NCBI GenBank assembly: GCA_039583875.1 | Contig: CM077147.1 | Coordinates: forward strand, 110,716,124 to 110,780,123 | Reading direction: 5' to 3' | Length of the DNA stretch: 64,000 bases | DNA from: Platanthera guangdongensis | Lineage: Eukaryota; Streptophyta; Magnoliopsida; Asparagales; Orchidaceae | Shown: positions 683-63,617 of the stretch, one piece after another | How the letters are laid out: the number at the start of each line of letters is the position of its first letter | Position numbering within the stretch: the first letter of the stretch is position 1 | The notes under the pieces: model-generated | What the model saw: the letters and a program-made list of their open reading frames with translations, nothing else | Database searches by the model: none | Told to the model about the DNA's origin: nothing | Made by a program: the position numbers and the translations under genes

Positions 683-714
683 TGTAACATCCCAATTTTC
701 TCAACATGCAATTT

Positions 715-1376
715 TTGGGTGACACGGCCTGGGACACGGGCGTGTCCCAGGGCGTGTCAAGCTGGAGTCGACGATTTGGCCGCGAGGTCGACGAAATTTG
801 GAGTCGACGGTCATCGAACAACAGACACGGCCTGAGACACGGGCGTGTATCAGGGCGTGTCGAGGCCGTGTCGACGATCGGCCTTGGTGTCGACGTTTTT
901 CGCTCGACGATGTGTCGAGAGAAGGCACGCGGCCAAGGACACGGGCGTGTCCAAGGCCGTGTCGTGTGCTCGACGATCGTCGAGTGTCGAGATGTGGTCT
1001 TCGAGTGTCGAGATGTGGTCGTAGAGTGTCAAGACGTTGCACACGGCCTGTGACACGGGCGTGTCACAGGGCGTGCCAATTCGGGTCGACGAACTCAGCC
1101 CGACGAATTTTGCGCTAGGGCGTATCGAAGTGCCGTGTATGGGCACACGGCCTGGGACACGGGCGTGTCACAGGCCGTGTGAAGTATCAGGTTCTTTTGG
1201 GATTATTTTCGCTGATGCACACGACCACAGAAACGGGCGTGTCTGGAGGCATGTTGGGTGACACGGCCCATGATACGGGCGTGTCCCATGGGCGTGTCAT
1301 TGGTTTGGATCAGTCGGTTGACCACCGCTTGAGGCACACGGCCTGGGACACAGGCGTGTCACAGGCCGTGTCAGGT
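715..1376 (+). repeat. Seven-unit hairpin array in TK1 LTR U3
   Basis: Each unit centres on GACACG-GG-CGTGTC and extends outward to about 36 bp: left arm ACACGGCC plus a variable five bases, right arm a matching five bases plus GGCCGTGT. Centres lie near 739, 842, 944, 1058, 1162, 1278 and 1353, so spacing is mostly 102-116 bp. Between the hairpins sit several TCGACGA motifs (for example near 767, 786 and 885). In three or four units the variable bases of the two arms change together. Translation of this sequence gives false Arg/Cys/Pro-rich ORFs on both strands. Confidence 0.9.
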
Positions 1377-1656
1377 CAAATTCAGCTTTTCTGGCATTTT
1401 TGTGGCCGTCCGTTCCTTCAGCCTGGATCTAAAGGCTGAGCTTCTTTCCTCTTTTACTAAAGGCCGAAAACTGAGAACATAGTCTCATTTTGCTTAAGCC
1501 TTCATCTTTTTACAAGTTAAAGAGAGAAAGGGAGAGGAAGAAGAAGGAAGAAGAAGAAGGGCTGTGCTGGTGGAGCTTGAGAGTATCAAGCTGCGATCCG
1601 AAGCCGGCGTTGCGGAGGAAAAGTGCTTGTGATCCATTCAAGCTAGCTTTGTGTTC

Positions 1657-1680
1657 ATGACACCGAAGCGGTCGTCAAGG
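1657..1680 (+). other. Conserved 24-nt gag first exon plus splice donor (TK1 LTR copy)
   Basis: ATG followed by seven codons (M-T-P-K-R-S-S-R) ending AGG, then GTAACG at 1681. The same 24-nt reading frame and AGG|GTAACG donor occur at 43574, 54299 and 63618. In the 5' LTR of TK3 this exon joins gag in frame; here it sits in a 3' LTR and is a passive copy. Confidence 0.6.
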
Positions 1681-2754
1681 GTAACGACTTTCCTTCCTAG
1701 CCATGTGAAGGCTTCCTTTTGGCATATATTTGTGATTCCCCCACCAAGAGGTGGCTGATTTTGGGAGTCTTTTGGGTGATTCATGAAATCTCCTTTGTTG
1801 GCATATAGATCCAAAAATGGAGTACGGAATAGGCATGCTGTGTGAAGCCCATCTGGACAGGTTGGTCTGGATTGGTGATGTTGCATACGAACCGGAGAAG
1901 ATTCCGTGATAAACGTGTAGTTTAAGGAGTCAACGAGTTATGCCTGCGAAAAGGAGTAGCAGGAAGTACTGGAGTGGTAGCCCAGGAAAATATCCGTGGT
2001 ATGTTTTTGGGTCCGACCTGTGAATGAGGCATAGGAAATACTGATGTGACCAAGAAAGACCCTTTTGTGATGCTTGATGTCGTAGGGTGTCCACCTGTGA
2101 CGCGAGTAACAGGAAGTACTAGCGTGGTAGCCAGGAAAGACCCCTGACATTTGTGATTTTGCGGTGTCCACCTGTAAAGCGAGTAACAGGAAGTACTGGG
2201 ATGCCCAGGAAAGACCCGATGTTGTGATAAGGAAATGAGCATAGAGAAATAACCAGGCTGTGTGCCAAGAACAGGATTGGTGAGACCGACCCGCGCCTTT
2301 GATTAAGCCATGAGTACGCTGTACTCGGAGAAGGCAAGGCGATTTGAGCAACGGGGGGTGGAGGATCCGACCTGCGCTATGTCCGTCCGACGTGAGACCA
2401 AAAGGTGCGGTATGTTGGAGCGCATAGCAAGAGTCTTAGGCCTGCTCGCCATGACACAATGGGGGGCTACGGGCCATCCCGGTGTAGTAAGACTAACTCC
2501 GGCTGCACGCCATGGAGTAAATGCTCAAGAGATTTACCGTTGGGTTGTGACCCTAATACGGTGGTGGGCAAGAGCTTTGCCAGAATACCAAGAATGTGCC
2601 CTGAGTGCACGGACCGTTGGGCCGGGTGGCGAACGGTTGTGATGGCATGTGTGCGTAAAAGCACATTATATGATATATATTGCCATACTTGTGATATGTT
2701 ATGCCTGTAGGGAAGAATACCGCTGCCCCGAGAAAAGGTGTAGGGTTGTTATAA

Positions 2755-2820
2755 TTTGGTCAGCTAAATGCTGACCGTTGCTTCTGTTTGCCACCGTTGG
2801 GTGGATTGTCCTTGTACAGG
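2755..2820 (+). promoter_or_regulatory. Conserved twin-hairpin block with 3' splice-site signature
   Basis: GGTCAGC-taaat-GCTGACC (2758-2776) is followed by CCACC-gttg-GGTGG (2791-2804) and CTTGTACAG|GTGCTG. Equivalent blocks lie at 44388-44447 and about 55848-55907. CTGAC fits a plant branch point and the AG fits a splice acceptor. Role inferred. Confidence 0.45.
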
Positions 2821-3234
2821 TGCTGGAGAGCCAAGCAGGACGCATAAAGGCTGATGTTCCTGCTGCTGTTGCTGCTACTACTGCTAGCCCTCGAAGGCTA
2901 GTTGGAAATGATGTTCTGTTTTCTTTAATTGTGGCCGGCCTGCGCGCCAATGTTAAAGCCACTTTGTGAAAGCCATGTAAGGCCATAAGACCATCTTTTG
3001 TGCTCTTGTAAGACATTCCTATAGATATATATCCAACGTGGGTTGTGTTTTATGTTGGACATTCACTGGTGGAGTTCTAGTTGTAGTATAGGCTTCCGCT
3101 AGAATGCTTTGTGATAGGTGCGATGCGCTACTCTGATATCATCCCGTACCTTCACCGCCTGTTTTGTGATATATACTGTGAGGCCCCGACCGGACCTTCT
3201 AGTATATACCATATGAACAGATGGGGTTGTGACA

Positions 3235-6200
3235 GAGAATCAGGCTAGTTCGCCGGAGCAAGCTTCGGCCATGGAGCACCACCACCGCACAAGCCGCCAA
3301 GCCCGGCTAGACGTCTGTTTCACCTCACCTCACCCCGTGCTAGCTTTTTAGCTCAATTAGGAGAGACATCGGGCTCAATTGAGCCCGATACCATGAGAGC
3401 CAGAGGGAATTTTCCCAAGCATTTCTTCCAGCTCGGGATCGCCGGAGGAGCCGACTCCGGCAGCCTCACCACCGGGAAACGCTAGTCACCACCTCAACGG
3501 AGCTGGTGGCGATAATCGCCGACGGTGGCGCCGGACCAGGTGGCCGAAAAAAGGCCAGCAAACTTGCCCAGGATGGTTCAATCTCAACCGTTGGTTGTTG
3601 GGAACGATGAACGGATACCGTCCATTTAATTCCAGATTGATTAATTAAATTGATTAATATGAACAGTGTAAATTCTGTCACTCATTTACAGTGACTTTGC
3701 ATTTTAAATATAGGTTCCTTAGATGCAATTTCAGAACTGGTCACCAACATAATAATTGTAGATCTATGTATTAACTTGTTTTGACACCCTAAACATGTAA
3801 TTTGGAGCAGTGGGCTCCCTGTAGGGCCATTCTACCAAGGCTGGTCCTAGGCCAGGGCAAATTTTAAAACAAATGCCCAAGCCAAACCATAAGTCACCAT
3901 GACTTGAAATTTTGGCCAGGCTTGTTTAGGGGTAAAACTAGTGTCTGACCAAAAATGAGAATTTTTGGTCAGAACTTTTTCATAGTATTTGATGAAATAC
4001 TAAAAATTAAATTAAGTGTATTTTTGGAGACATATGACTCCAAAAGCCCCCAAATTTGGGTGGGATGGTCATTAGGTCAAGATGAATCCATGATAAAAAT
4101 TTCAGGTCATTTTGACCTCTGCATGATTGGGAAATCACACATGCATGAGATTGACATATTCAAATTTGGGGTGCCAATAATAAAAATTGAAAAAAATATA
4201 TGAATTTAGCCCAATTGGGTCATTGTAAGTCCATGAAACTCTAGACAGAGGCTCATATGAATGTAATATACCTCCCATGAGAAATTTGGGATTTTGGGGA
4301 TCAAAAATCCCATTATTTGGAATTATTGGAAAATGTGCCTAGTTAGGAAATAAATTTGGAAAATAGGGAAATAAATTCATTAAATTATGAATTTTTGACA
4401 CAAGCTCTAGTAGGGCAAATTTCACCTCTGGAAAAATTTATGGCTCTGTTTCATAAATTTTCCTTTGATTTTAAGTAGATTTTACCATTTTGACCGTTGT
4501 GGAAATAAATTAAAAATAAGGGAAATTTGTGTTTTAAAATTATGAAAAATTTTACAGTGGTTTATTATTGTGTTTTGATTTCTAATAAATTATTTGAAAA
4601 TTTTTGGATGCCCCTATATGTTAAAAACCCTAATAATGACACTTTTGTAATATTGTTTAAATAAATATAAGATATGTCAGATCATTATTTAAGATTTGAA
4701 AATTCTGCACTTAGCCTTATGATGTCATCATGAACACCCATAAATTTATCAGAATTTTTGGTTGAGAAGGTGAGGTACTTTATTTGGAAAGTGGTTGAAT
4801 TGGAATTATAATATTAAATGGGAAATAAATAGAAATTTGCATGGAAATAATATGAAACATGAAAGACAATAATATTTAACCTTATGAAACACGTAGCAAA
4901 CTCCTTAGGTAGGTTGAACCATTATATGTAGTACTTCATGTTCAAAGTGACCTCGGTCGCACAATTAAAAGAATTAATTTAGGCCCTGAATCCCTTGAAA
5001 AAATAATGAAACCTGGTTCGATCATTATCACACGTCATAACAACCATGATAAATAATTAGGGGCATTTGACCCAAGAGTTTGGATGACACGTTATACGGG
5101 TCAACATTAGGTCATGGGAGTGCTTAACAAAATATAGCACATGTCTCTGGGACCCACAGGGGATTCGATAGAAGGTTGAGTTGGTAACTATATTGAGAAG
5201 ACAAAGCCTGATTGGTGTCTAGTAGGTCACTCCATAGTATCAAGCGATAGAGTGCAAGACCCAAGGATAGTAGCTAGAACGGAGACCAGATGAAGACCGC
5301 CGATTCCCCAATAATAACTTAATTCATTAGTTTTGCTTATAGATAAATTTGGGACCATTTAGGAGCACCATTAGGCCTTCATCCTATCCTATTAAATATA
5401 GTAGTCAAAGAAAGAGAGATAGCCTTGATCTGAAAGCAAAATTTAACATCAAACCAGCATTGAATTCACTCCCAATTCCACTCTGGATACTCAGAAATGA
5501 GAATTGAAACACGGCCAAATGTCGTAATAATTTGAAGTTTATAGAGGTGGGTTACTCGAGGAGAGGATCTGAAAGTGCCCATGCATCATGGAGTAGTCAG
5601 ATAGACTTTCCATTGCCCACCACCCATCGATTATGTGGGAGAATAAGGTGAGCGTGCCCAAATATGTAACATCTCATTTCCAATTAGACCCCTCTACTTA
5701 GGTTGGGTTGGGACATGTGGTGGGGGCATGAGTTTAGGCTAGGTTTGAACCATGGGGTTAGGGTGTAGTCATATGGGACCTACTATATGGCCCAAGTTAA
5801 CTCAAGTCAAACTAACCCAAATTGGGGTCTTAGCCACACATTGGTCCACCCCTACACCCCTAACCCTTGTAACAACCTAAGTGAACCATAAGCCACATCT
5901 TTGGGTCACCTATTGACCCATGTTGACCCAAGTCAACCCTAAACCCTAATTTGGTCAAACCTACACTTAAAGGTCCAATTAGCACAAGTAGGGCATCACC
6001 TTGACCCAACCCAAGTTGGGTGGTGCCATAGGGTCCATGACCCTCAAGTGAGGTCAGCCCACTCACCATGTTGACCAAGTCATCCTAAAAGTCAACAAAG
6101 TGGCCTAAAAGAGAAAAGAAGGAACCAAGCCCACCCCTCATGAGCTAAGCCCATGAGTTAAGGCCCATGACCAGCCCAAGAGGTTAATGTCAGCCTCTAA

Positions 6201-6538
6201 CCCCCAAAATCAGGAAAGCGAATGCATGCATGGGGGTAATTTAGACATTTTGGAGAAAAAGAGGAGAGAGAAGAGAGGGAGATAGGGGATGAAGGCCATG
6301 TGGCCCTCCTTCCCTCTGCCCAAGCTGTTGGCTGAGCTTCCAAGGATTATTCCAGCAAGGTGGAGGGGTTGGTGGACACCTAGTGGCCAGGAGGAGATTC
6401 CAAAGTCATGGCCGACCACCCCCTTAATTCAAACATCTCCCACAGCCACTCCCAGCCAAATATAGGCCCACCATCAGCTTCAGGAGGTGGAAACGAGTGG
6501 AGTTCGACTGCTGGAGCAAAGCTTTTGTTGGAGAAACG
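3235..6538. repeat. TR unit 1
   Basis: First full copy, cut at its left by the TK1 insertion. It holds an 82-codon ORF (3955-4203, MRIFGQNFFIVFDE...) also open in unit 3. I do not recognise the peptide. TGTAACATCTC at 5666 resembles a gypsy LTR start, but no matching LTR end was found. Confidence 0.85.
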
Positions 6539-9500
6539 GAGAATCAGGCTAGTTCGCTGGAGCAAGCTTCGGCCATGGAGCACCACAACCGCACAAGCAG
6601 CCAAGCCCGGCTAGAGGTCTGTTTTGCCTCACCTCACCCCGTGCTAGCTATCTAGCTCAATTAGGCGAGACATCGAGCTCAATTGAGCCCGATATCATGA
6701 GAGCCAGAGGGAATTTTCCCAAGCATTTCTTCCAGCTCGGGATCGCCGGAGGAGCCGCCTCCGGCAGCCTTACCGCTGGGAAATGCTAGTCACCACCTCA
6801 ACGGAGGTGGTGGCGATAATCGCCGGCGGTGGCGCCGGACCAGGTGGCCGAAAAAAGGCCAGCAAACTTGCCCAGGACGGTTCAATCTCAACTGTTGGTT
6901 GTTGGGAACGATGAACGGATACCGTCCATTTAATTCCAGATTGATTAATTAAATTGATTAATATGAACAGTGTAAATTCTGTCACACATTTACAGTGACT
7001 TTGCATGTTAAATATAGGTTCCTTAGATGCAATTTCATAACTGGTCACCAACATAATAATTGTAGATCTATGTATTAACTTGTTTTGACACCCTAAACAT
7101 ATAATTTGGAGCAGTGGACTCCCTGTAGGGCCATTCTACCAAGGCTGGTCCTAGGCCAGGGCAAATTTTAAAACAAATGCCCAAGCCAAACCATAAGTCA
7201 CCATGACTTGAAATTTTGGCCAGGCTTGTTTAGGGGTAAAACTAGTGTCTGACCCAAAATGAGAATTTTTGGTCAGAACTTTTCCATAATATTTGATGAA
7301 ATACTAAAAATTAAATTAAGTGTATTTTTGGAGATATATGACTCCAAAAGCCCCTAAATTTGGGTGGGATGGTCATTAGGTCAAGATGAATCCATGATAA
7401 AAATTTCAGGTCATTTTGACCTCTGCATGATTGGGAAATCACACATGCATGAGATTGACATATTCAAATTTGGGGTGGCAATAGTAAAAATTGAAAAATG
7501 TGAATTTAGCCCAATTGGGTCATTGTAAGTCCATGAAACTCTGGACAGAGGCTCATAGGAATGTAATATACCTCCCATGGGAAATTTGGGATTTTGGGGA
7601 TCAAAAATCCCATTATTTGGAATTATTGGAAAATGTGCCTAGTTAGGAAATAAATTTGGAAAATAGGGAAATGAATTCATTAAATTATGAATTTTTGACA
7701 AAAGCTCTAGTAGGGCAAATTTCACCTCTGGAAAAATTTATGGCACTGTTTAATAAATTTTCCTTGGATTTTAAGTAGATTTTACCATTTTGACACTTCT
7801 AAAAAATAATTAAAAATAAGGGAAATTTGTGTTTTAAAATTATGAAAAATTTTACAGTGGTTTATTATTGTGTTTTGATTTCTAATAAATTATTTGAAAA
7901 TTTTTCGATGCCCCTATATGTTAAAAACCCTAATAATGGCACTTTTGTAATATTATTTAAATAGATATAAGATAGGTCAGATCATTGTTTAAATTTTGAA
8001 AATTCTGCACTTAGCCTTATTATATCATCATGAACACCCACAAATTTCTCAGAATTTTTGGTTGAGAAGGTGAGGTACTTTATTTGGAAAGTGGTTGAAT
8101 TGGAATTATAATATTAAATGGGAAATAAATAGAAATTTGCATGGAAATATTATGAAACATGAAAGACAATAATATTTAACCTTATGGAACACCTAGCAAA
8201 CTCCTTAGGTAGGTCGAACCATTATATGTAGTACTTCATGTTCAAGGTGACCTCGGTCGCACAATTAAAAGAATTAATTTAGGCCCTTAATCCCTTGAAA
8301 AAATAATGAAACCTGGTTCGATCATTATCATACGTCACAACAACCATGATAAATAATTAGGGGCATTTGACCCAAGAGTTTGGATGGCACGTCATACGGG
8401 TCAACATTAGGTCATGAGAGTGCTTAACAAAATATAGCACATGTCTCTGGGACCCACATGGGATTCGATAGAAGGTTGAGTTGGTAACTATATTGGGAAG
8501 ACAAACCCTGATTGGTGTCTAGTAGGTCACTCCATAGTATCAAGCGATAGAGTGCAAGACCCAAGGATAGTAGCTAGAACGGAGACCGGATGAAGACCGC
8601 CGATTCCCCAATAATAACTTAATTCATTAGTTTTGCTCATAGATAAATTTGGGACCACTTAGGAGCACCATTAGGCCTTCATCCTAGCCTATCAAATATA
8701 GTAGTCAAAGAAAGAGAGATAGCCTTGATCTGAAAGCAAAATTTCACATCAAACCAATATTGAATTCACTCCCAATTCCACTCTGGATACTCAGAAATGA
8801 GAATTGAAACACGGCCAAATGTCGGAATAATTTGAAGTTTATAGAGGTGGGTTACTCGAGGAGAGGATCTGAAAGTGCCCATGCATCATGGAGGAGTCAG
8901 ATAGACTTTCCATTGCCTACCACCCATCGATTATGTGGGAGAACAAGGTGAGCATGCCTGAATATATAACATCTCATTTCCATTTAGACCCCTCTACTTA
9001 GGTTGGGTTGGGACATGTGGTGGGGGCATAGGTTTAGGCTAGGTTTGCACCATGGGGTTAGGGTGTAGTCATATGAGACCTACTATATGGCCCAAGTTAA
9101 CTCAAGTCAAACTAGCCCAAATTGGGGTCTTAGCCACACATTGGTCCCACCACTGCACCCCTAACCCTAGTAACAACCTAAGTGAACCATAAGCCACATC
9201 GTTTGGTCACCTATTGACCCATGTTGACCCAAGTCAACCCTAAACCCTAATTTGGTCAAACCCACACTTAAAGGTCCAATTAGAACAAGTAGGGCATCAC
9301 CTTGACCCAACCCAAGTTGGGTGGTGCCATAGGGTCCATGACCCTCAAGTGAGGTCAGCCCACTCACCATGTTGACCAAGTCAACCTAAAAGTCAACAAA
9401 GTGGCCTAAAAGAGAAAAGAAGGAACCAAGCCCACCCCTCATGGGCTAAGCCCATGAGTCAAGGCCCATGACCAGCCCAAGAGGTTAATGTCAGCCTCTA

Positions 9501-9839
9501 ACCCCCAAAATCAGGAAAGAGAATGCATGCATGGGGGTAATTTAGTCATTTTGGAGAAAAAGAGGAGAGAAAAGAGAGGGAGAGAGGGGATGAAGGCCAT
9601 GTGGCCCTCCTTCCCTCTGCCCAAGCTGTTGGCTGAGCTTCCAAGGATTATTCCAGCAAGGTGGAGGGGTTGGTGGACACTTGGTGTCCAGGAGGAGATT
9701 CCAAAGTCATGGCCGACTACCCCCTTAATTCAAACTTCTCCCACAGCCACTCCCAGCCAAATATAAGCCCACCATCAGCTTCAGGAGGTGGAAACGAGTG
9801 GAGTTCGACTGCTGGAGCAAAGCTTTTGTTGGAGAAATG
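6539..9839. repeat. TR unit 2
   Basis: Second full copy. The 82-codon ORF of units 1 and 3 is closed here by a CAA-to-TAA change at the codon after AGC CCC (near 7352), a C-to-T event. That argues against a selected protein. Confidence 0.85.
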
Positions 9840-11932
9840 GAGAATCGGGCTAGTTCGCCGGAGCAAGCTTCGGCCATGGAGTACCACCATCGCACAAGCC
9901 GCCAAGCCCGGCTAGAGGTCTGTTTCGCCTCACCTCACCCCGTGCTAGCTTTCTAGCTCAATTAGGCGAGACATCGAGCTCAATTGAGCCCGATACCATG
10001 AGAGCCAGAGGGAATTTTCCCAAGCATTTCTTCCAGCTCAGGATCGCCAGAGGAGCTGCCTCCGGCAGCCTCACCGCCGGGAAACGCTAGTCACCACCTC
10101 AACGGAGGTGGTGGCGATAATCGCCGGAGGTGGCGCCGGACCAGGTGGCCGAAAAAAGGCCAGCAAACTTGCCCAGGACGGTTCAATCTCAACCGTTGGT
10201 TGTTGGGAACGATGAACGGATACCGTCCATTTAATTCCAGATTGATTAATTAAATTGATTAATATGAAGTGTAAATTCTGTCACACATTTACAGTGACTT
10301 TGCATGTTAAATATAGGTTCCTTAGATGCAATTTCAGAACTGGTCACCAACATAATAATTGTAGATCTATGTATTAACTTGTTTTGACACCCTAAACATG
10401 TAATTTGGAGCAGTGGGATCCCTGTAGGGTCATTCTACCAAGGCTGGTCCTAGGCCAGGGCAAATTTTTAAAAAAATGCCCAAGCCAAACCATAAGTCAC
10501 CATGACTTGAAATTTTGGCCAGCCTTGTTTAGGGGTAAAATTAGTGTTTGACCAAAAATGAGAATTTTTGGTCAGAACTTTTTCATAGTATTTGATGAAA
10601 TACTAAAAATTAAATTAAGTGTATTTTTGAAGACATATGACTCCAAAAGCCCCCAAATTTGGGTGGGATGGTCATTAGGTCAAGATGAATCCATGATAAA
10701 AATTTCAGGTCATTTTGACCTCTGCATGATGGGGAAATCACACATGCATGAGATTGGCATATTCAAATTTGGGGTGCCAATAGTAAAAATTGAAAAATGT
10801 GAATTTAGCCCAATTGGGTCATTGTAAGTCTATGAAACTCTGGACAAATGCTCATAGGAATGTAATATACCTCCCATGGGAAAGTTGGGATTTTGGGGAT
10901 CAAAAATCCCATTATTTGGAATTATTGAAAAATATGCCTAGTTAGGAAATAAATTTGGAAAATAGGGAAATGAATTCATTAAATTATGAATTTTTGACAC
11001 AAGCTCTAGTAGGGCAAATTTCACCTCTGGAAAAATTTATGGCACTGTTTAATAATTTTTCCTTGGATTTTAAGTAGATTTTACCATTTTGACACTTATG
11101 AAAATTAATTAAAAATAAGGGAAATTTGTGTTTTAAAATTTGGAAAAATTTTACAGTGGTTTATTATTGTGTTTTGATTTCTAATAAATTATTTGAAAAT
11201 TTTTGGATGACCCTATATGTTAAAAACCCTAATAATGGCACTTTTGTAATATTGTTTAAATAGATATAAGATAAGTCAGATCATTGTTTAAGATTTGAAA
11301 ATTTTGCACTTAACCTTATTATGTCATCATGAACACCCACAAATTTCTCAGAATTTTTGGTTGAGAAGGTGAGGTACTTTATTTGGAAAGTGGTTGAATT
11401 GGAATTATAATATTAAATGAGAAATAAATAGAAATTTGCATGGAAATATTATGAAACCTGAAAGGCAGTAATATTTAACCTTATGGAACACCTAGCAAAC
11501 TCCTTAGGTAGGTTGAACAATTATATGTAGTACTTCATGTTAAAGGTGACCTCGGTCGCACAATTAAAAGAATTAATTTAGGCCCTTAATCCTTTGAAAA
11601 AATAATGAAACATGGTTCGATCATTATCATACGTTATAACAACCATGATAAATAATTAGGGGCATTTGACCCAAGAGTTTGGATGACACGTCATACGGGT
11701 CAACATTAGGTCATGAGAGTGCTTAACAAAATATAGCACATGTCTCTGGGACCCACAGGGGATTCGATAGAAGGTTGAGTTGGTAACTATATTGGGAAGA
11801 CAAACCCTGATTGGTGTCTAGTAGGTCACTCCATAGTATCAAGCGATAGAGTGCAAGACCCAAGGATAGTAGCTAGAACGGAGACCGGATGAAGACCGTC
11901 GATTCCCCAATAATAACTTAATTCATTAGTTT
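9840..11932. repeat. TR unit 3 (truncated)
   Basis: Matches the first ~2.1 kb of units 1 and 2 through ATTCATTAGTTTTG, then switches abruptly to TK2 LTR sequence. The ORF at 10558-10827 is the counterpart of that at 3955. Confidence 0.85.
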
Positions 11933-13673
11933 TGTTCCAGAGTAACAACGAGAGCTGGGTTGGGATCATGGGTAGACATTGATAAAAATAAATATCCTTG
12001 CGAAAGGGAGCTTTGGGTTTTAACTCATCATAGCTCCTAGTGCTCTCGAGAGTCTTTCACCGGGCACGCCTTGGCAGTCTTGCGATTAACCCTAAAATTC
12101 TAGGTATAATAAACACTAGACAAGAGTAGTCTAATAGACTAAGGCATTGATTTTCTTCTCACCCGTGATGGGTTGGAGGGATTCAGAATAAAGGCAATAA
12201 TGTGCAATCTCACCCGTGATGGGTTGGAGGGATTCAAAATAAAGGCACTAATGTTATGGGTTGGAGGGATTCACAATAAAGGCATTAATGTGCAATCTCA
12301 CCTGTGATGGGTTGGAGGGATTCAGGACAGGTTGGTCTAGCGAGCTGGAGGCTCGGGTTGGAATATCTTGCATGTGCATAAACTTGTGGCGGGTTATGCG
12401 GTACACTGATGCTAGTACGGTGACTCTAGTGAGGTGTGATGGTTTGAGGGGCCAGTGGGGGTTTTTACACTACGGTCTGGAGGACGATCCCCAAGAACGC
12501 ACACTCGACCAAAAAGACTAGTGGGTAGCCAACAAATAGTATACAAAGACTCTAGAGTGCACCTAGGATGTGTACAGAGGCGTATGAGAGGTCTATGCCT
12601 GGTAGTGTGTATACCCGCCTAGGAGTGGAGATGACCGCTCCACTGCTATCGTACCCACAATGGTGGTGCCAGAGAGTGATGCTAGCTCTGAAAAGTGGGA
12701 ACTAAAGGTCTGTGATCACAGAGTCGTATGTGTGAGTTGCACTTACATGAACCATAAAACACATGCATATCATACATTCATAACTAGGTCATATGCACCA
12801 TAGATCCTTATCATATAAATTAGTATGGGCTCTTTTATATGATAAGTTATATTTCTGGAAACCTTAACTTATAAGTTTGTATAGACATTCATATAAGTTT
12901 AGGTACTTCTGTGATGGTAGATTAGTAGTAGCTTATTTTACTTGCTGTCTTTACTCTGCTTACTTTCAGTATTTGCTTACTTACAACACTTTACTTGTTT
13001 CTGTTCAGTTCTTGTTACCTTTCATTCAACATATATATAGAACCGCTAGAATAGAAATAACTGACATATATATTCTTCTTAGAATAGTTCCACTGTCACA
13101 TGTTTCCTTTGCTATACCCCTTGTTGTCCTCCGCTTCATCCTCCCGCCTGGTGCCTAGGAGTTGCGGGGGTGAGGTGTGGAGGAAACGACTTAGTCTTTG
13201 TGATTAACGGTCGGTGTGACCAATCATTTTAGGTGCTCGAGGAGATAGAGTACCAGTAGGATGAGGTGGCAGGACGTGAGGAGCTGATACCACCACTACC
13301 TACTACTACTATAGCCCGTCGTTAGGTGGGATGAGTTTTCTGAAGATAGTATAGCTTCCGCTTGTTGACATTTGTGAGAGAGAGATTTGATATTATGTAA
13401 AGGGCATAAGCCCTTTTTCTCTTTTGATGTACTAATTTTGTACTCGTGTACTTTCACTTTTATTTGATTGTACTGTGACTTGTGGACTAGCAGTTATTAT
13501 ATACTGCTGTTTTTACTTCTATCTCTTAATTGGCCGAACAAGTTTTATGATCGTATTAGACGGCAGGATCGACGTGTTGCAGTGTCAACTAACCCGTGAG
13601 TTAGTGCCACTGTAAGGCGGCGGTTCTGGGCATAAGACCAGGAGCCTCCTTGGTAAGGGGGAGGGGTCTTACA
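11933..13673 (+). mobile_element. TK2 5' LTR (left edge approximate)
   Basis: Right edge: GGGGTCTTACA directly before a primer-site-like sequence. Left edge: the switch from TR unit 3; TGTTCCAGAG at 11933 could be the LTR start, but a truncated LTR is also possible. Contains a ~51-bp minisatellite (12159-12330), AT-rich sequence and no credible ORF. It does not resemble the TK1/TK3/TK4 LTRs, so TK2 is a different lineage. Confidence 0.65.
12159..12330 (+). repeat. Minisatellite, ~51-bp unit
   Basis: About three and a half units containing CACCCGTGATGGGTTGG, AGGGATTCA and AATAAAGGCA; one unit is shortened. ACCC-GTGAT-GGGT in each unit is a small inverted repeat. Confidence 0.85.
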
Positions 13674-16178: not shown

Positions 16179-16515
16179 ATGGCCAGAGGTGGAGGAGAAG
16201 GAGCTGGCTCGGGAGGTTCTCCCTTCCGGGAGAGTGGGGTGACGTTGGGAATGTTAGAGGACTTCAGGCGGGATGTCTTGCAGACTATCCACTTGGCCTT
16301 CTCGGCGAGAGGCGAGTGGGAGAATCCGCAGGTCCCGGTGGCGGTTGCTTTGTCATTGGGTGAGAACGCTCCCAGACATCGTCCTGGGAAGGAGATTCCG
16401 GCTGAGGCGGCGGAAAGAGACATCCCCAGACGGGAGCTGTTCCCGGGATAAGCAAGTGCAGACAGAGCCAGTGAGCCGAGGTCGCGGGAGGAGCCTTCTC
16501 GGCAAGTTGTGAGCA
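16179..16515 (+). pseudogene. TAT1 gag, N-terminal part (interrupted by COP1)
   Basis: ATG at 16179 (MARGGGEGAGSGGSPFRES) opens a frame that matches the Tat/Retand Gag start in context: LTR, short leader, Gly/Arg/Glu-rich N-terminus. A TAA at 16449 is the only early stop. The copia element COP1 entered at 16516. Taking out COP1 and one copy of its 5-bp target duplication (4580 bp) brings this frame into register with the Gag domain at 21158. Confidence 0.7.
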
Positions 16516-20647: not shown

Positions 20648-20660
20648 TCCTCTGATACCA
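20648..20660 (-). other. COP1 primer-binding site
   Basis: CCTCTGATACCA on the plus strand is the complement of TGGTATCAGAGG, matching initiator-Met tRNA, and touches the 5' LTR. Confidence 0.85.
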
Positions 20661-36540: not shown

Positions 36541-36659
36541 CCTGCAAGAGAAAAGCGAAGATCAAGTGCAAGGGAACTGAAAGCGTGAGATAGAGGTCGA
36601 AGAAAAACTAGATATAAGGTTTTCCAGAATATGAATCGACAAACTCCGTTCCATGGAAA

Positions 36660-36915: not shown

Positions 36916-36929
36916 AGACAGAAGTTAAA

Positions 36930-51912: not shown

Positions 51913-51939
51913 TGTAATGACCCAAATTACTTAAGGCAA

Positions 51940-52405
51940 GAAATGGTTCTCTGGAGGTTATCGCCCGACGGCAGCTAGTTACCGTGTGGCGGTAGCTCCC
52001 GGGATAGTGTCAATAGTGCTGAGAGAGTTGAGTCGAATCAACGCTGGACGTACCGCATGGTGGAAAGTTCTTATCGCGTGGCAGTAGCAGGGGAATTAAA
52101 CTAGCAGAGCTCTCGGGAAGCTATCGCCCAATGATAGTATTACCACTGGCGATAGCTGGGTCAATTTAATTGATATAGTTCTCGGGATTCTACCGCGCGA
52201 CAGTAGCAGTTAGCGTGCAGCGATAGCGGCGAGTGTCGTGTCATAACTGACGTCGGCTATCTCACGGCATTAACATCCTATGGCACGACGATAGGGAATC
52301 CGTAATAGAGTGGCCATGTGTCGGCCCGCGATTGGAAGGTTTTTGTGGTTATGCTCGGAACGAGGCATTGAATTAAGGTACCGCACGACGATAGCTAGTT
52401 ACCGC
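51940..52405 (+). repeat. TK4 U3 array (TACCGC/GCGGTA words)
   Basis: Repeated GGTAGCTAGTTACC, CTATCGCCC, TACCGCRTGG and GGCGATAGC words in both orientations, forming many small inverted repeats such as CTATCG-CC-CGATGATAG (clear at 60331). The TK5 LTR repeats the series at 60150-60510. Confidence 0.82.
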
Positions 52406-52409
52406 ATGG

Positions 52410-54086
52410 TGATGAGGAACTTTATAGTTTTAAAATTATATCCAAACTATAATCTCGAAATAGGCAAGTGCACCTATTGAAATATAGTATAAGAAATGCC
52501 GTATTAGACACGAGGCCTGTTGAGTATTTCTACTCACGCAAATTATACTATTTTATCGTTTAATAAAATGAGTTAATTTAAACTACAACTAGAAAACAAA
52601 ATAAAATATAGCACTTGATCTAGAATCCCCTTGTACTAAAACTAACCTCCTTTATGAACATAAAGTACGCAAGACTTTTAAATTGCTCACCCGACCATGG
52701 AGGTTCCTTAAGTACAAAAGCGTCTCTCTCGAACTCATGCTTTTGACTAACCTTAGGTTGATCGATTATGACCTCTCAGCCAGTCGAAACCCTAAGCTTG
52801 CTTTAGGTGGTGAACTCCTCTATTGGATTTGACTCCAATCCGGAAGATTTATGTCGTCCTCTCTCGAGGAGTGCATGCGACTCCTTTTGTCTTTGAGTGA
52901 TCTCCTCGTATCCGCAACCTCTCGGTCATTTAGGATACTGATCTTAGATCGAAGAACATATCCACGCAATATGAATTCGATACAATATAAATCAAAGATA
53001 AATCGTTAGTGAGTAAAGTAAAGGACTTGACATTTTTAATAAAGTTGAGAAGCTTATTTTATTCCAAGATTCATCATGATCAAGTGCTAAAAGAAGTTTA
53101 GCTACTAAGCATGATGATGAAATTACATAGAAAGAAGGGCAGCAACATGATTAATAAGAAGAGAGTAATTGAATTAAACATAAAGAAATGCAAACTAAAC
53201 TATGAAGCTAAGGGTTACATAAAGAAAATGCAGCAAAACAGAGAAATAAACGAGGTAAAACTACTCCTAGATTGGCCTCCTATCTCCCCCTCTGCTCTTG
53301 AACTTATCTGGAATTTATAGGAAAAACTTCTGGAAGGTCACGCCCTGGGTCACGCCCGTGACCTAGGGCGTGTCAGGCTCGAAACCGCCGTCTTGAAAGC
53401 CCGGGAATGTTGGAGGAGAAAATGCCAAAATCTGTTAAATGGCGGGTCACGCCCCTAGGCCACGCCCGTGACCTAGGGCGTGTTATTTCTGTTTCTGGAA
53501 AATGGTAGGAAGCTGAAAATGGCGGGAGTAAACATGTGTTGATGGAGGCGTCACGCCCCATGGTCACACCCGTGACCAGGGGCGTGTCAAGCTGTAACGG
53601 AAATCTGGCGCAACGACAGGAACAGCTGATTTACTGGCTAGAAATGCACATGCCACGCCCTTTGTCACGCCCATGAACTTTGGGTCACGGGCATGTACTT
53701 GACTGTTCGAAGTTCTTCGATCGACGAATTGAACCCCGTGGTCACACCTTCGGGTCACGCTTGTGGCCCATAGGTCACGCTAGTGACCAGTGGCGTGTAG
53801 CTTTAAACTGATGTGTCCCGTTCTCTGGAATTCCTCTATGGGTCACGACCACATGCCACGCCCATGACCTGAAGGTCACACCCGTGGCATGGCCGTGAAA
53901 AGTTGATTTTTCCAGGATTGCTCTGTCTGTTCTGCTGATCAGCATAGCATGCTCCAATTTGTTATCTACAGCCCAAATAAAATAGAAATAAGAAAACAAA
54001 GCATTTTAACACAAATATTAAAATAAACTAAATAAACTATTATAAATAAAAACTATATAAAAATAACTATAAATAAAGACTTATCA
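52410..54086 (-). mobile_element. SL1: 1.68-kb solo LTR inside TK4
   Basis: Plus-strand ends TGATGAGGAAC and GACTTATCA, TSD CATGG (52405-52409) / CGTGG (54087-54091); the uninterrupted TK5 LTR confirms the site. On the minus strand: AT-rich start, array of CACGCCCGTGACC hairpins (53905-53340), TATA box TCCTATAAATTCC (53325-53313), then a leader. No coding sequence. Same TGAT...ATCA ends and promoter layout as SL2. Confidence 0.82.
53340..53905 (-). repeat. SL1 hairpin array
   Basis: Units of about 34 bp, for example CACGCCCTG-GGTCACG-CC-CGTGACC-TAGGGCGTG at 53340. Further units near 53450, 53551, 53653, 53755 and 53850, thus ~100 bp apart as in TK1. One TCGACGA lies at about 53721. Confidence 0.87.
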
Positions 54087-54298
54087 CGTGGCGGTAGCTT
54101 TATTTATAAGCATGGTTTGGCTGTTTCTCTTCATCTTTTTTTGGAGAGGAGTTGGTGCCCTGGTTTTTTGGAGGAGGAGCAATGCCAGGAAGTAGGGTTC
54201 TTACCGCCGTTCGTGTTTTAGGTCTCAAATTCGTAAGGCAAGTTCTGATTTGCGGAGGCAAGGTCAGAGCGGTCGTTTTAAACCCTCTCGATTCTCCC

Positions 54299-54322
54299 AT
54301 GGAACCAAGTCATACATCAAGG
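54299..54322 (+). other. Conserved 24-nt gag first exon plus donor (TK4 copy)
   Basis: ATG GAA CCA AGT CAT ACA TCA AGG then GTAACG: same length, start and donor as at 43574, with four changed codons. Confidence 0.55.
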
Positions 54323-54435
54323 GTAACGATCCTCTTCCTTGGACATGTGAAGTCCTTTCTTTTGGAATTAGAGGGTAGACACTGCACAAACACATGGATG
54401 TGGTTCTCCCGATGGGTAGATCCGTGTTTCCCCAT

Positions 54436-55050
54436 TATACAACCCATATTCGTCGAGGATGGGTCACAACTAGGTCATCAGAAGTCAAGGTCAACAAGTC
54501 AAGATAGAAGTCAACATCAGCGCGCAAGACCATAGAAGGCCTGGGTGAGTATGGCGAGCTCCCCACACATACTCACCAAGTAGGCGACTAGACGAGATAC
54601 TCGCCCAGCCCGTGCGAGTTCCTCCGGAAGTCGCCTAGTCTCCAGGGGTAGGGTATAAATATGACCCCCCTCCTTGGATTTGCCTATAAATAGGACCCCA
54701 ATGGTACGAGGTGATGCACTTGAAATCCACTGCAGGATACTCACGAGCTCTCATTTCTAGATACTAGCCGAGTCTTTGGATTCCATTTTCTTAGAGATCA
54801 AGTCGCGACCTTGTGACTTCGTCACCAGCTAGTCTCCCTCATACCCAGTTCGGCTATTTTTGGTGGAGAAGGGCCCGCTCCTTTCAAGCATCCGAGTATG
54901 TGGTGGGACCTTCCTGCCGCAACATCTGGGGTCTTGTTTGACTTGGTTCTTCATCCTAGTCACCCTAGCTGTACGATCTTGCCCCTGAGCCGGTAACCTT
55001 AGGCGGCAATGGTCCGAATTCTGAGGTTGGGAATTTTCCTGGCTTCAACA
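54436..55050 (+). mobile_element. Tat-like solo LTR (615 bp) inside TK4
   Basis: TATACAACCCATATTCG...GGCTTCAACA, bounded by CCCAT (54431-54435) and CCCGT (55051-55055); the uninterrupted TK5 site reads CCCCGTAGT. Start and end words match the TAT1 LTR at 15424. It holds opposed GGCGACTAG/CTAGGCGAC words, then TATA boxes GGTATAAATATG (about 54652) and GCCTATAAATAGG (about 54682). Confidence 0.8.
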
Positions 55051-56319
55051 CCCGTAGTATTGCATTTAGATCCTGAATCAAAGTATATAATAGACATGCT
55101 GTGTGAAGCCCATCTGGACAGGTTGGTATGGATTGGTGATGTTTGTATGTTTTGTATGCTGGAGAAAACTCTGTGATTATTATATAGATTTCAGAGTCGC
55201 GGGGTGTGTAGGTGACTGCGTTGAGAGTACTGGGCGAAGTCTCCAGGAAAACACACGTATAGGGGGAAGAACTGATAATCTATCCCCTACCGCGCCATCG
55301 ATAGCTTCCTGTAAGCTATGTTTGTATGTTGAAGCCTGTCTCTGGGAGACTTGTGGGCTATATTTTTTGGTTGAGCGTGAGCTTATATTGCTCAGCTTTG
55401 GTAGCCATGTGTGCTAGCCAGGATCCTTACAAAGTTATGGATCATGCAGAAAAGGGAAAGGGGATGCTGACACGCGTCAGGCCTCCGAGTCAGACAATTT
55501 GAGCACAGGATATGGCTGAACTATACCCTCCCCTATGACGGTCAACTTGGAGTGGCCACGTGTACATCACATGACTTGTCATAGCACTGGGGCATTGTCT
55601 CTGGCCTTGGCCCTTGTGAGACTAAAAGCTCAAATGTTATTGACCGTCATAGGGAACGGTGATGCGACCCTTGAGGTCCTGTGCATTAAGAATGTGCTAT
55701 GAGAGTACGGGGCGTTGGGCATTTGTGCCAAAGTTTGTGGATAACGGTGCTTAAGTTACACGTTTTGATTGCCAAGTGTTGTTTAAGCTAATGCCTGTAG
55801 GGAAGGAGCACCGCCACCCCGAGTGAGGGGTGGGGTCATTATAATTTGGGCAGCTAATACTGACCGTTGCTTTTGTTTGTCATCGTGCGGTGGATTGTTC
55901 TGTGTAGGTGCTGCTAAGCCAAGCAGGAAGTAGTGGGCTGAAGCCCAGAAATGCTGTGTTGGCCCTTAAAGGCCAAAGCGAACTATTGTGTTATTTTATC
56001 GTTCATGTGTGGCCGGCCTACGTGCCAAAGTATATAACACACTTTAATTCAAGTTGAACATTGTAAGGCCTTATGGCCAAGACCTTATTTGTGTATTTGT
56101 TTTACATTCCTAATTGTGGTAGTGAACATTCATGTTATTATTGTGTTATATTTCTAACATTTAATTACTTCTGCTAGAATGCACTCTGTGGTAGGATGCA
56201 GAATATTGGATTATGGTTTCAATTTAGTAACTCCTTGGTCCGTCCGTTGTATATGGCGTCGGGCCCCGACTGGACCTTCTATTATATGCTAAGTGACTGA
56301 TGGAGGTGTTACAAGAAGG

Positions 56320-58735: not shown

Positions 58736-58741
58736 GGGTTA

Positions 58742-60124: not shown

Positions 60125-60149
60125 TGTAACGCCCTAAATTCCTTAAGGC

Positions 60150-60510
60150 AGGAAATGGTTCTATGGAGGTTATCGCCCGACGGTAGCTAGTTACCGCGTG
60201 GCAGTAGCTCCAGGGATAGTATCGACAGCGCTGAGAGAGTTGAGTCGACTCAACGCTGGACTTACTGCATGGCAGAAAGTTCTTACCACGTGGCGGTAGC
60301 AGGGGAATTAAACTGACAGAGCTCTCAGGAAGCTATCGCCCGATGATAGTGTTACCGCTGGCGATAGCTGGGTCAAATTAATTGATATAGTTCTCGGGAT
60401 TCTACCATGTGACAATAGTAGTTAGCACGCGGCGATAGCGACATGTGTCATGTCATAACTGACATTGGCTATCGTGCAACGTTAGCGTCCTATCACACGA
60501 CGATAGGGAA
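60150..60510 (+). repeat. TK5 U3 array (TACCGC/GCGGTA words)
   Basis: Same series as 51940-52405, with individual sites changed in each copy, e.g. TTACCGCGTGGC here versus TTACCGTGTGGC there. Confidence 0.82.
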
Positions 60511-60699
60511 TCCGTAATAGTGTGGCCATGATTAGTAGTAAATATAAGTATTTTTACGTACAATAAATAAGTTGTTTATTTTCTTTTTGTTATTTTTAGT
60601 TATTTTTCTTTAATAAATTGCTTCTTTTTTGTAAATATTTTCTAACTTTATTTATTTTATTTTTTTGAAATTTTCCAGAAATTGTACAAATTTCATGTT

Positions 60700-61145
60700 A
60701 CATACCCGTGTACTTCAGATCACGCCCGTGACCTGGGCGTGTACCTTCAATTCCAAGTGAAATCAGTCGCCCGCAAAGAAATTATTGAACACGCCCAAGT
60801 ACACGCCCGTGTCCAATATGACACGGCCGTGACCACGCCCCGTGTCACGCCCTCGATGATTTTGCGCTCGATGTTCGTTGACCCGACCGACACGCCCGCG
60901 TCAAGATGAAACACAGCCATGACTTCTCCACGTGGCCCAAGACAAGACGTCTCCAGCGACTTATTGATACGACGCCGTCCCCAGTTCAACCTTCCCGACA
61001 CGCCAATGTTACACGCCTGTGTCAGCAGAGTCATGCCCGTGACTGCCACGTGTATAGCCATAAAGTCAAACCAGCCATCACTTCTCTGGATCACATCATG
61101 AATAGTGCTTACACGCCTCCCTACACGCCCGTGACCTAGGGCGTG
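60700..61145 (+). repeat. SL2 hairpin array
   Basis: TCACGCCCGTGACC, ACACGCCCGTGTCC and GACACGGCCGTGACC units, the last CCTACACGCCCGTGACCTAG at about 61120, some 25 bp before the TATA box. Confidence 0.85.
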
Positions 61146-61160
61146 TACTTTGAAAATTTT

Positions 61161-61170
61161 GCCTATAAAT
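61161..61170 (+). promoter_or_regulatory. SL2 TATA box
   Basis: GCCTATAAAT just downstream of the array; SL1 has CCTATAAATT in the same place. Confidence 0.6.
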
Positions 61171-61884
61171 TGAACTTTTTTGTTTGAATTTCTATTCCTC
61201 TTTTTTGAACCCTTTTGCCTTAGGGTTGTGCTGTTTAGATGTATTTCCAAGGCTATGTAAGGGACATTCTCCCCATCTCTTATGTTTGTTTTTAGCTTTT
61301 TGTAACAACACTCTTTTTAGCTTAATAAAATGTTTAGATTTTTGTCTCCTTATGTTGTTTTTGAATGCATCTATGTGCCCCTCCTTAAGCAATCTTATTT
61401 ATTTTTGTTTTATCTTTATTTTTCTCGTCTTTAAAATGGGTGTGTGTGTGTATGAGTTTAGTTTTATGCTTTCATAGTTTTCATGATTTTCATAGCTTAA
61501 CTTTTTAGTACTCTTTATGTTCATTCTTATGAGTTTATAAAGATGTCTTAAAAATGGTTTTGATTTTTCTTTAACTTAGTTTTTTTGTTAGGATGTAAAA
61601 CTTTTCGTTCTTTTTCTGCTTTATTTCCACTTTTTAAGCTCTTTTATAAAATTCTAAGAATGAAAAAGTTATCGTTTTAATTTTTCGAGCACTTTGATTT
61701 TCCCTTTTATTTGCAAAACGTTTTGCTCCTTTAATTTTTATTTTGTCTTTTTTTTGCATTTCTACCACATTCTAGCGGTAGAAATGTAGTTGTTTTAATT
61801 TTCCAGTCACTTTGTTTTTCACATTTTTCGTATGTGTGCGTGCATGTATGAATTATTTTTTATAGCTTTCTTTCATTACTGTAG

Positions 61885-62195
61885 AGAGTGTGTGTGTGTG
61901 TTTACATTTCTATAGAGTGTGTGTGTGTTTTAATTTCAGTGGAGTGTGTGTGTGTGTTTTTAATTTCTATTGAGTGTGTGTGTGTTTTTATTTCTATAGA
62001 GTGGAGTTTTTAATTTCAGTAGAGTGTGTGTGTTTTTATTTCAGCAAAGTGAGTGTGTATTTTACTCTATGTAGAGTGTGTGCGTTTTTATTTTAGTAGA
62101 GTGTGTGTGTGTGTTTTTAATTGCTGTAGAGTGTGTGTGCATTTTTATTTTCTGTAGAGTTTGTGTGTTTTCATTTCTGTAGAGTGCGGGTGTGT
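61885..62195 (+). repeat. GT-rich interrupted microsatellite
   Basis: About ten blocks of GAGTGTGTGTGTG followed by TTTTTATTTC, a ~35-bp higher-order repeat within SL2. Followed to 62330 by opposed CTACTCGTTTGAGTAGGACT words. Confidence 0.88.
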
Positions 62196-62955
62196 GTGTA
62201 TTTATTTCCTCCTACTCGTTTGAGTAGGACTCGCTTTCATTTCCCGCCTAATCATTTGAGTAGGACTTGTCATTTACTGCTTTCATTTCCCATCTACTCG
62301 TTCGAGTAGGACTCACAATTTACTGCTTTCTTTACTGCTTTCATTTATCGCTTTTTTTATTGCTTTATTTTCTGCTTTCATTTTATTGCTTTCTTTCCGC
62401 AAGCCGTCCTCATTCCGATGAGTGGCTAACCGCTCTTAGCCCTCAGTATCGAAGAGCATTGAGACAGATAAAATCTCTTTAAATAATTAAAGGTCCTATT
62501 TTTCTAATTAATTAAATTACTTAAGGTTTGCCTCGGGTTTACGACGCGTAGAACCACATATCGATGTGTGGGCTCTATTTCTGTAGTCCATACGCTAGCT
62601 AGCCAAGAGGCTGTGCGTATGGACTGATTGCCCCTTGGTAAATGGAGTTTCGTACTAACCCTTGAAAGAGGAGGTGCGGAATTCTACCGAATTGGGCTCC
62701 CCACCCAATAGCTGGGTTCTTAGCGTAATGCAAGCATTAAGAGGAATCCTTTGTCGGACGAGAGCCCGGTCGAGTAGTCTTAATGTTTAGGTAAGCGATA
62801 GTCGTAGAGATAGGTGAGCTCATGTTTGTGTAATCTCTACGGCCAAGTCTCCGCCTTAATTAATTTGAACTTTTGGATCTCTTTTTATTCAAAATTATTT
62901 TAGTTAGAATTCTTTTAGATACAGTTGCGCTAAGTTCTTCATCGGCTCCATTTTA

Positions 62956-62961
<6 letters not shown>

Positions 62962-63039
<78 letters not shown>
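62962..63039. repeat. (TA)n microsatellite
   Basis: About 39 TA dinucleotides without interruption. Confidence 0.97.
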
Positions 63040-63044
<5 letters not shown>

Positions 63045-63617
63045 GTACCCGAGGGAAGAGTAGAAATAATACACGATAAAATAATAGTCCCCTCCAGGGA
63101 ATAGTAGAAATAATCAACCCGTACCCGAGAACAATATGACCCCGATATTTCTCACCGAAATATCCTGTACTACACACGATAGGTGCATTTGCCTTCTTTC
63201 GTTAAAACTCGATTTCAACTATTTTATATCCAAATAATAAATACGCGCGCCCCGTCTTCCTAAATAAAACCAAATCCGCTTTTTCTAAAATAAACCGCTT
63301 AGGGCGCCACGTGTCCTAAATAGTTTTTTGAGTTTTAACCCTCCATCAAGCCATGTGTTGGCTTGTGATTGGAAGGTTTGGGTGGTTACGCCCGTAACGA
63401 GGTATTGAATTAAGGTACAGCACAGCGGTAGCTAGTTACCACGCGACGGTAGCTTTATTTATAAGCCTGGAGTTGGTGCCTTGGTTTTCTGGAGGAGCAG
63501 CGCCAGGAAGTAGTGTTCTTGTCGCCGTTCGTGTTTTAGGTCTCGAATTTGCATGGCAAGTTCTGATTTGTGGAGGCAAGCTCAGAGTAATCTTTTTCAA
63601 CCATCTAGATTTTTCCC

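Follow-up and report, generated by a model that had tools for sequence, protein, structure and literature searches.

Arrays of CpG-bearing words upstream of the TATA box are shared by Copia and Ty3 retrotransposons in the orchid Platanthera guangdongensis

The long terminal repeats (LTRs) of many retrotransposons of Platanthera guangdongensis carry arrays of short CpG-bearing words ahead of a mid-LTR TATA box, and some of these words are identical in Copia Sireviruses and Ty3 elements. The arrays are a real and strongly non-random feature of the sequences that carry them. They were studied in a 64,000-nucleotide stretch of contig CM077147.1 (C1; positions 110,716,124 to 110,780,123, forward strand), here called the window, which is part of a 4.25-Gb genome. 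Further samples comprised 200 kb of C1 (L009-L028), from which nine LTR pairs (B1-B9) were used and B6b and a pair cut at the block end (193045) were left out, and 50 kb of contig C4 (L029-L033). Words and clusters were counted in the window plus the C1 sample (264 kb). We presume B5, SL1 and SL2 to be Tat-like and TK1, TK3, L029, B6 and B8 to be Tekay-like from their LTR ends and primer binding site (PBS) types and from the chromodomain of TK1; B7 is an unclassified LTR.

Sixteen 7-mers have three or more copies in a Copia U3 and likewise in a Ty3 U3, compared with 0.4±0.7 in shuffled sequences (maximum 3; 100 shuffles of 16 U3s, some of which are related, such as TK1 and TK3). Fifteen of these overlap TCGTCGA or GTGTCGA at least partly. 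Each of the two words has three or more copies per U3 in six LTRs, with Copia and Ty3 elements both represented, and no shared word of the shuffles reaches more than two LTRs. TCGTCGA is also the most over-represented CpG 7-mer in the 264 kb (247 copies, with 12.6 expected under an order-2 model), and GTGTCGAC, CACGCCCGTG and TACTCGAGTA rank highly as well. Almost all of the words (506 of 535) fall within 38 clusters of at least three. Similar clusters are found on the C4 contig, including mixed arrays in L029 and in L030, the latter assigned by array likeness alone; the Ty3 element L029 combines nested palindromes with GTGTCGACAC, which is the array unit of the Sirevirus B2. CpG 9-mers held in common point in the same direction for B3 and TK1 (27, with 2.6 expected from shuffles, maximum 9), TK1 and B5 (43, 4.6, maximum 13) and B3 and B5 (18, 2.7, maximum 10). 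Other pairs, among them B9-B5, B1-B5 and B2-B5, stay within the maximum of 60 shuffles, and SIR2 and COP1 take no part in the sharing of either TCGTCGA or GTGTCGA. The first-pass annotation had proposed that unrelated LTR families share one promoter design, and this proposal is supported in a more specific form, namely identical words in Copia and Ty3.

The assignment to the two superfamilies draws on several features. B1, B2, B3, B4 and B9 are Sirevirus-like, with related 3' ends and a AGGGGGAG polypurine tract (PPT), which reads AGGGGGAA in B4. This tract adjoins the 3' LTR in B2 and B3 and is found reversed in B1, B9 and SIR1, and the 3' LTR limit of SIR2 is unplaced. Copia RVT_2 domains are present in ORFs (open reading frames) of L011 (B2) and L013 (B3) and in the window ORFs at 25077-26018 (SIR2) and 37199-38077 (SIR1); B1, B4 and B9 are placed in Copia by LTR, PPT and PBS likeness only. 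Copia coding domains are absent from TK1, L029 and B5. B5 is a Ty3 element by RT_RNaseH and Integrase_H2C2 domains and a TGGCGCC-type PBS, L029 is Ty3 by Integrase_H2C2, and TK1 has SH3_Tf2-1 and a weak chromodomain.

In nine LTRs (B2, B3, B4, B5, B9, SIR2, COP1, SL1 and SL2), all 141 words lie upstream of the mid-LTR TATA box, where a uniform spread would place 73.6; the boxes were chosen by us, each GTGTCGACAC dyad was scored as two words, and B2 supplies 54 of the 141. Independently of the choice of box, all 141 words are confined to the first half of the LTR to which they belong, with the last word starting at 0.22-0.49 of LTR length. B1, TK1, TK3 and SIR1 were omitted from this test because the scanned piece holds no TATAWAW box; the words of B1, TK1 and TK3 also sit in the first part of that piece. 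It had been claimed that a TATA box follows such arrays directly. This holds for the Tat-like LTRs B5, SL1 and SL2, wherein the start of the last word is 39-41 bp from the box, but the distance is 141-254 bp in B2, B3, B4, B9 and SIR2 and 197 bp in COP1, and only one of the two SIR1 LTRs has a TATAAA, 91 bp past the array.

The window as a whole is rich in inverted repeats. Counted as perfect repeats with arms of at least 6 and spacers of at most 8 nucleotides, and with 15 dinucleotide shuffles as control, there are 286 (113.8±9.3 in shuffles), of which 105 bear CpG (25.9±5.2); with arms of at least 7, 40 CpG-bearing repeats remain (7.7±2.7). Exact counts confirm the individual motifs listed previously. 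GACACG-GG-CGTGTC has seven exact copies (at 733, 938, 1052, 1156, 42856, 42959 and 43187), AGACCG-CC-CGGTCT has three per COP1 LTR and six in total, and TACTCGAGTA, TTCGTCGA and TCGACGAA occur 29, 28 and 14 times. GGTCACG-CC-CGTGACC is represented by one exact copy (53348) and three with one mismatch (53458, 53562 and 60718), and this core (GGTCACGCCCGTGACC) has 26,571 exact copies genome-wide, whereas the reversed control has 0. An array is not borne out in the TK4 and TK5 LTRs, each of which has just two GGTAGCTAGTTACC-type sites, and the Tat-like pair GGCGACTAG (54583) and CTAGGCGAC (54630, as complement) has one exact occurrence each and therefore forms no array. In the segment 54583-54700, single copies of GGCGACTAG and GTCGCCTAG stand ahead of two TATAAATA boxes.

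The elements and arrays of the window are as follows.
3 to 557, plus strand: ORF with SH3_Tf2-1 (Pfam PF24626, E 4.9e-22) and a chromodomain (PF00385, E 4.5e-4, under the curated cut-off), the 3' pol end of the chromovirus that owns the TK1 LTR.
683 to 1460, plus strand: U3 of the TK1 3' LTR, starting TGTAACATCCC after the PPT, with nested CACG-GG-CGTG palindromes at a period of 102-114 bp and seven TCGTCGA and six GTGTCGA interspersed.
16514 to 16945, minus strand: COP1 3' LTR, with three AGACCG-SS-CGGTCT dyads.
20659 to 21090, minus strand: COP1 5' LTR, with three AGACCG-SS-CGGTCT dyads and the TATA box 197 bp past the start of the last.
24417 to 24619, minus strand: array of the SIR2 3' LTR, with nine TACTCGAGTA spaced mainly 21-22 bp.
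31048 to 31806, minus strand: array of the SIR2 5' LTR, with 20 TACTCGAGTA; a CTCCTATAAAAGG box lies near 30900.
32635 to 33207, minus strand: array of the SIR1 3' LTR, with 12 TCGTCGA, chiefly direct repeats and several of them 21 bp apart.
36490 to 36911, minus strand: SIR1 internal array 2; downstream of it in sense come CTTATATCTAG (65 bp) and, 85 bp further, an ATG.
40315 to 40508, minus strand: SIR1 internal array 1, on the 5' side of the internal region.
42035 to 42582, minus strand: array of the SIR1 5' LTR, with TCGTCGA words.
42845 to 43310, plus strand: array of the TK3 LTR, with three CACGGGCGTG, three TCGTCGA and three GTGTCGA.
51913 to 55295, plus strand: TK4 LTR, split by SL1, with two GGTAGCTAGTTACC-type dyads; a weak case.
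52411 to 54150 (approximate limits), probably minus strand: SL1, a nested Tat-like LTR with nested palindromes, the last core lying 41 bp ahead of a CCTATAAATTCC box near 53319.
60125 to 63994, plus strand: TK5 LTR, split by SL2, with two GGTAGCTAGTTACC dyads, the second just ahead of TTTATAAGC; a weak case.
60529 to 63200, plus strand: SL2, a nested Tat-like LTR with stretches 68-82% identical to B5, the last core lying 40 bp ahead of CCTATAAATTGA at 61164.
60718 to 61147, plus strand: palindrome array of SL2.

The minus-strand orientation of COP1, SIR1 and SIR2 follows from their PBS and PPT, and that of SL1 was called from a by-eye TATA box and the likeness of its 3' end. The coding content of TK3 is limited to a weak gag/zinc knuckle ORF. 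SL1 and SL2 have no coding region and are LTRs only, each nested within a TK4 or TK5 LTR. SL1 resembles B5 in its array units and, by eye, in its 3' end. A reading of the TK1/SL likeness as one family on opposite strands was rejected, since TK1 lies behind a chromodomain ORF, whereas much of the SL2 LTR resembles the Tat-like B5; TK1 itself has no match to B5 at the cut-off of the LTR comparison and only word-sized matches on closer look.

There are several other observations on this stretch. The insertions of SL1 (52313-52410, 54081) and SL2 (60530, 63350) lie about 90 bp apart in the two LTRs of TK4/TK5, and that of SL1 adjoins a GGTAGCTAGTTACC-type palindrome; the available text of PMC6911290 reports that LTR retrotransposons weakly prefer palindromes. 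Inside the SL2 LTR is a perfect (TA)39 microsatellite (62962-63039), and the unrelated LTR B7 (L024) also has a long TA-rich tract. Positions 3232-11937 form a tandem triplication of head-to-tail units of about 3.3 kb (the third partial), which are 95-96% identical and CpG-poor, and the window ORF list has no ORF of at least 130 amino acids in these units.

The Ty3 LTRs have in common a 38-bp nested palindrome around CACG-SS-CGTG. In TK1 it reads GACACGGCCTGG-GACACGGGCGTGTC-CCAGGGCGTGTC, with variants, recurs every 102-114 bp and has TCGTCGA and GTGTCGA words in the intervals. In B5 it is GTCACGCCCAGC-GTCACGCCCGTGAC-CTGGGGTGTGAC, again 38 bp long, with a period of 104-107 bp over the last units, some of which are separated by these words too. 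TK1 and B5 also share an exact string of 22 bp, and the spacers of the Tekay-like and Tat-like palindromes score 18.8 in likeness (14.0±0.4 shuffled, 16.9 for the reverse complement), a comparison of nine spacers per side in which TK3 and SL2 yielded none. Given the shared unit, period, string and spacer similarity, exchange between the Tekay-like and Tat-like elements appears to be as probable as convergence. The earlier view that the lineages are unrelated is thus doubtful for these two Ty3 groups. Copia and Ty3 have little in common beyond the words; the Sirevirus B4 and B5 share a string of 16 bp.

The arms of this nested type covary. The flanks of CACG-SS-CGTG form 254 complementary pairs, compared with 212±7 when right arms are permuted within arrays (54 sites, nine arrays, arrays with fewer than three exact cores such as SL1 and L030 being left out), a value that none of 5000 permutations reached; positions 4 and 8 of the flanks are individually non-significant. 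The sites in L001-4 are identical to those in L008, the two probably being a single element, and the signal persists without L008 (221, 186±6.6 permuted) and when one core mismatch is allowed (400, 337±10; 95 sites, eleven arrays). There are nine distinct complementary five-base linkers, where permutation gives 2.6±1.1 (maximum 7), and therefore the nested type is not one duplicated unit, although tandem duplication still ties the arms together. The plain ten-base dyads exhibit no flank covariation (TACTCGAGTA, 66 and 69 permuted; GTGTCGACAC, 93 and 95), and the sites of COP1 and of TCGTCGA-N7-TCGACGA are too few for a verdict. In B3, B4 and SIR1, TCGTCGA is chiefly a direct half-site, most commonly spaced 21 bp. 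Strict 10.5-bp phasing was rejected, as it is incompatible with the spacings of 19 and 38 seen in B2.

Sirevirus elements also carry internal arrays, so the arrays are not limited to LTRs. In all five elements inspected (B1, B2, B3, B4 and SIR1, representing three independent families, with B9, SIR2 and the C4 elements outside this set), an array behind pol is followed in sense by a TATA-like box 37-92 bp on and by an ATG 85-126 bp further; the TATA-like strings are by-eye picks and differ among the three families. Beyond the ATG, only one word in total is found in 500 bases of each of the five elements. The ORFs behind the ATG encode 40-67 amino acids in four elements and 228 in B2. A reading of the internal arrays as simple promoters by generic TATA scan was rejected, since boxes lie on either side of some arrays. 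Candidate internal promoters of an extra ORF behind pol are located at L009 9500-10000, L011 6651-7450, L013 3440-4100, L015 3200-3800 and window 36300-36950. A second internal array with no clear promoter or coding role is located on the 5' side in L013 (68-275), L010 (3481-3645) and the window (40315-40508).

The survival of CpG sites in these repeats had been considered remarkable. Pooled over eight LTR pairs (all but B6b, the pair cut at 193045, TK4/TK5, SIR2 and the C4 pairs), 56 of 298 CpGs changed inside arrays and 37 of 193 outside; outside counts are mainly 5-13 and are inflated by CpGs gained from TpG or CpA, and SIR1 adds an in-array count without an outside part. For transitions only, the stratified odds ratio is 0.63 (p=0.19), or 0.85 (p=0.76) when COP1 is removed. 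Protection after insertion was thus rejected as unproven. There is a lean toward fewer changes inside arrays in six of seven pairs (B5 is the exception) and in four of seven for transitions only. The clearest pair is COP1, with 0 of 13 changed inside and 7 of 13 outside. There may thus be weak protection of array CpGs, and their density may be accounted for well enough by source lineage and recent insertion.

We consider it somewhat more probable than the alternatives combined (roughly 0.55) that the arrays are upstream activating sequences, in which a small set of sequence-specific DNA-binding factors of the host would bind clustered sites. They lie upstream of TATA in U3, and in Sireviruses further arrays precede a probable internal promoter. 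The units chiefly recognised would be half-sites such as YGTCGA (TCGTCGA, GTGTCGA), paired into dyads or repeated in one direction at a distance of about two helical turns, and CACG/CGTG units in the form of nested dyads. Such arrays could expand and contract through tandem duplication. Since Copia Sireviruses use words that also occur in Tekay-like and Tat-like Ty3 elements, these lineages may exploit the same host factors, and the two Ty3 lineages may have exchanged the array module. Several observations weigh against binding by a few host factors. No TATAWAW box is found in the scanned pieces of TK1, TK3 and B1 or within 200 bp after the L029 array, and TATAWAW boxes within or before the array were passed over (B9 332, SIR2 214 and SL1 43). 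The boxes used are our own choices, and the orientation of SL1 was partly set by its TATA. A simple dimer site does not need the covarying arms of the nested type. Because SIR2, COP1 and B9 use different words, one factor cannot serve all. Moreover, the sampled families B6, B7 and B8 have no array words, as is the case for TK4/TK5. A more ambitious version, which is tentative at best, holds that one host regulator or small family with a YGTCGA half-site was captured by at least three lineages of two superfamilies via a module moving by recombination, and that the nested palindromes are kept symmetrical by arm-copying in reverse transcription.

Perhaps the arrays instead act, or are retained, as hairpin-forming RNA or DNA, with folded read-through transcripts supplying the small-RNA silencing of the host, as has been proposed for maize Sireviruses; the first-pass annotation had also named hairpin sources of small RNA as an alternative. 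Most arrays do fold far better than shuffles (mean z of -9.4 for B9, -5.9 for SIR2, -5.3 for B5, -4.2 for B1, -3.7 for B2, -2.9 for TK1, -2.8 for TK3 and -2.3 for SL1), the word-less LTRs do not (0.2 for B6 and B8, 1.3 for B7), the nested arms covary and there is a maize precedent for palindromes as sources of small RNA (cited in PMC10760457, in its available text). However, there is little folding in B3 (-0.3), B4 (-1.0) and SL2 (-1.2, with -3.0 at its downstream end), all of which carry words. Hairpin potential near zero in the related B3 and B4 means that it is not the common denominator of the arrays. In addition, the flanks of TACTCGAGTA and GTGTCGACAC do not covary, there is no excess of G-U over A-C mismatches in sense (30 and 34), and fuelling its own silencing would be of no benefit to an element. 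A half-site read by a protein fits all array types, including the direct half-sites of B3, B4 and SIR1, whereas a hairpin fits some, and we regard the hairpin explanation as unlikely. It is less likely still that the arrays are a mutational by-product, without selected function, of slippage in reverse transcription, template switching at palindromes and unequal exchange. The unequal SIR2 LTRs (9 and 20 exact copies) and the nine distinct linkers are what such processes, and arm-copying in particular, would produce, but these processes give no reason to expect identical words in different superfamilies, confinement to the first LTR half or the near-constant TATA distance in Tat-like LTRs.

The VANDAL transposons provide a different model, in which arrays are bound by the element-encoded anti-silencing protein VANC. 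Docking of an element-encoded protein would suit the clustered, family-specific and quickly changing words, as well as the ATG behind the internal array and the 228-amino-acid ORF of B2. It is nevertheless improbable, since the same words in two superfamilies with unlike coding content indicate a shared host protein. Least credible is a role as CpG-dense docking for methyl-CpG-reading activators, with the exact words secondary. Each main word does contain CpG, TCGA lies within TCGTCGA, GTGTCGA and TACTCGAGTA, and the CpG lean in six of seven pairs, above all COP1, would agree with it. However, CpG density would call for far less specific words, and the stratified CpG difference is non-significant.

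The design itself has been published for Sireviruses, and what is new here is the sharing of the same words by Tekay-like and Tat-like Ty3 elements. The available portion of Bousios et al. 2010 (PMC2829016) describes Sirevirus repeats (RM) as palindromic, CpG-bearing and short, present in many copies in the upper LTR half before a mid-LTR TATA, with further copies in the linker before an extra ORF and with CGG-CCG cores (Tnd-1 excepted). The same portion describes RM as Sirevirus-specific within Ty1/copia and lacking in its classic members, proposes an internal promoter without identifying it, and cites Tnt1 box I. The present arrays are alike in being high-copy CpG palindromes in the upper LTR half ahead of TATA, with linker copies before an extra ORF. 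At least eight copies in this position are found across SIR1, SIR2, B1-B4 and B9, with the exceptions that B9 has only five TCGTCGA plus longer palindromes, B1 lacks a TATAWAW box, and SIR1, B3 and B4 have mostly direct half-sites. They are unlike RM in that none of these seven has the CGG-CCG core, the cores instead being TCGTCGA, GTGTCGAC and TACTCGAGTA, and in that Ty3 lineages and the short-LTR Copia element COP1 also carry arrays. The LTR enhancer boxes of Tnt1 and Tto1 are short repeated cis boxes before TATA that are bound by host factors. They are present in two or three copies, unlike the arrays of about 30 dyads found here, and we know of no sharing of these boxes between superfamilies.

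Other precedents are less direct. Maize Sirevirus palindromes are siRNA (small interfering RNA) hotspots according to Bousios 2016, as cited in the available text of PMC5311732 and PMC10760457. The latter also describes cis-regulatory regions of transposable elements as often being arrays of sometimes palindromic repeats, and reports that a maize Copia palindrome is also the commonest of the structured motifs of maize Helitrons, which is a precedent for sharing across element classes. The likeness lies in a palindrome-rich cis region with hairpin potential. Here, however, that potential is known from sequence folding and is near zero in two related LTRs, and the sharing is between Copia and Ty3 LTR promoters. 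According to the available text of PMC11963269, Retand/Tat Ty3 elements have tandem repeats of 8-100 bp that are internal, usually in the stretch from pol to the 3' LTR; the present Tat-like elements also have tandem repeats, but in the LTR U3 ahead of TATA. Among the literature matches listed, with subscription papers mainly beyond reach, there is no report of palindromic promoter arrays in Ty3 elements or chromoviruses and nothing relevant on the array motif letters, and the available text of PMC12786077 makes no mention of such arrays.

The sharing of words with Ty3 elements and the internal order of array, TATA and ATG make a testable claim, namely that much of the retrotransposon content of this genome may be under the control of a small number of host factors. 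The three words provide defined probes for finding such a host factor. If one regulator has indeed been captured by at least three lineages, it would represent a common trans-switch for much of the LTR retrotransposon load.

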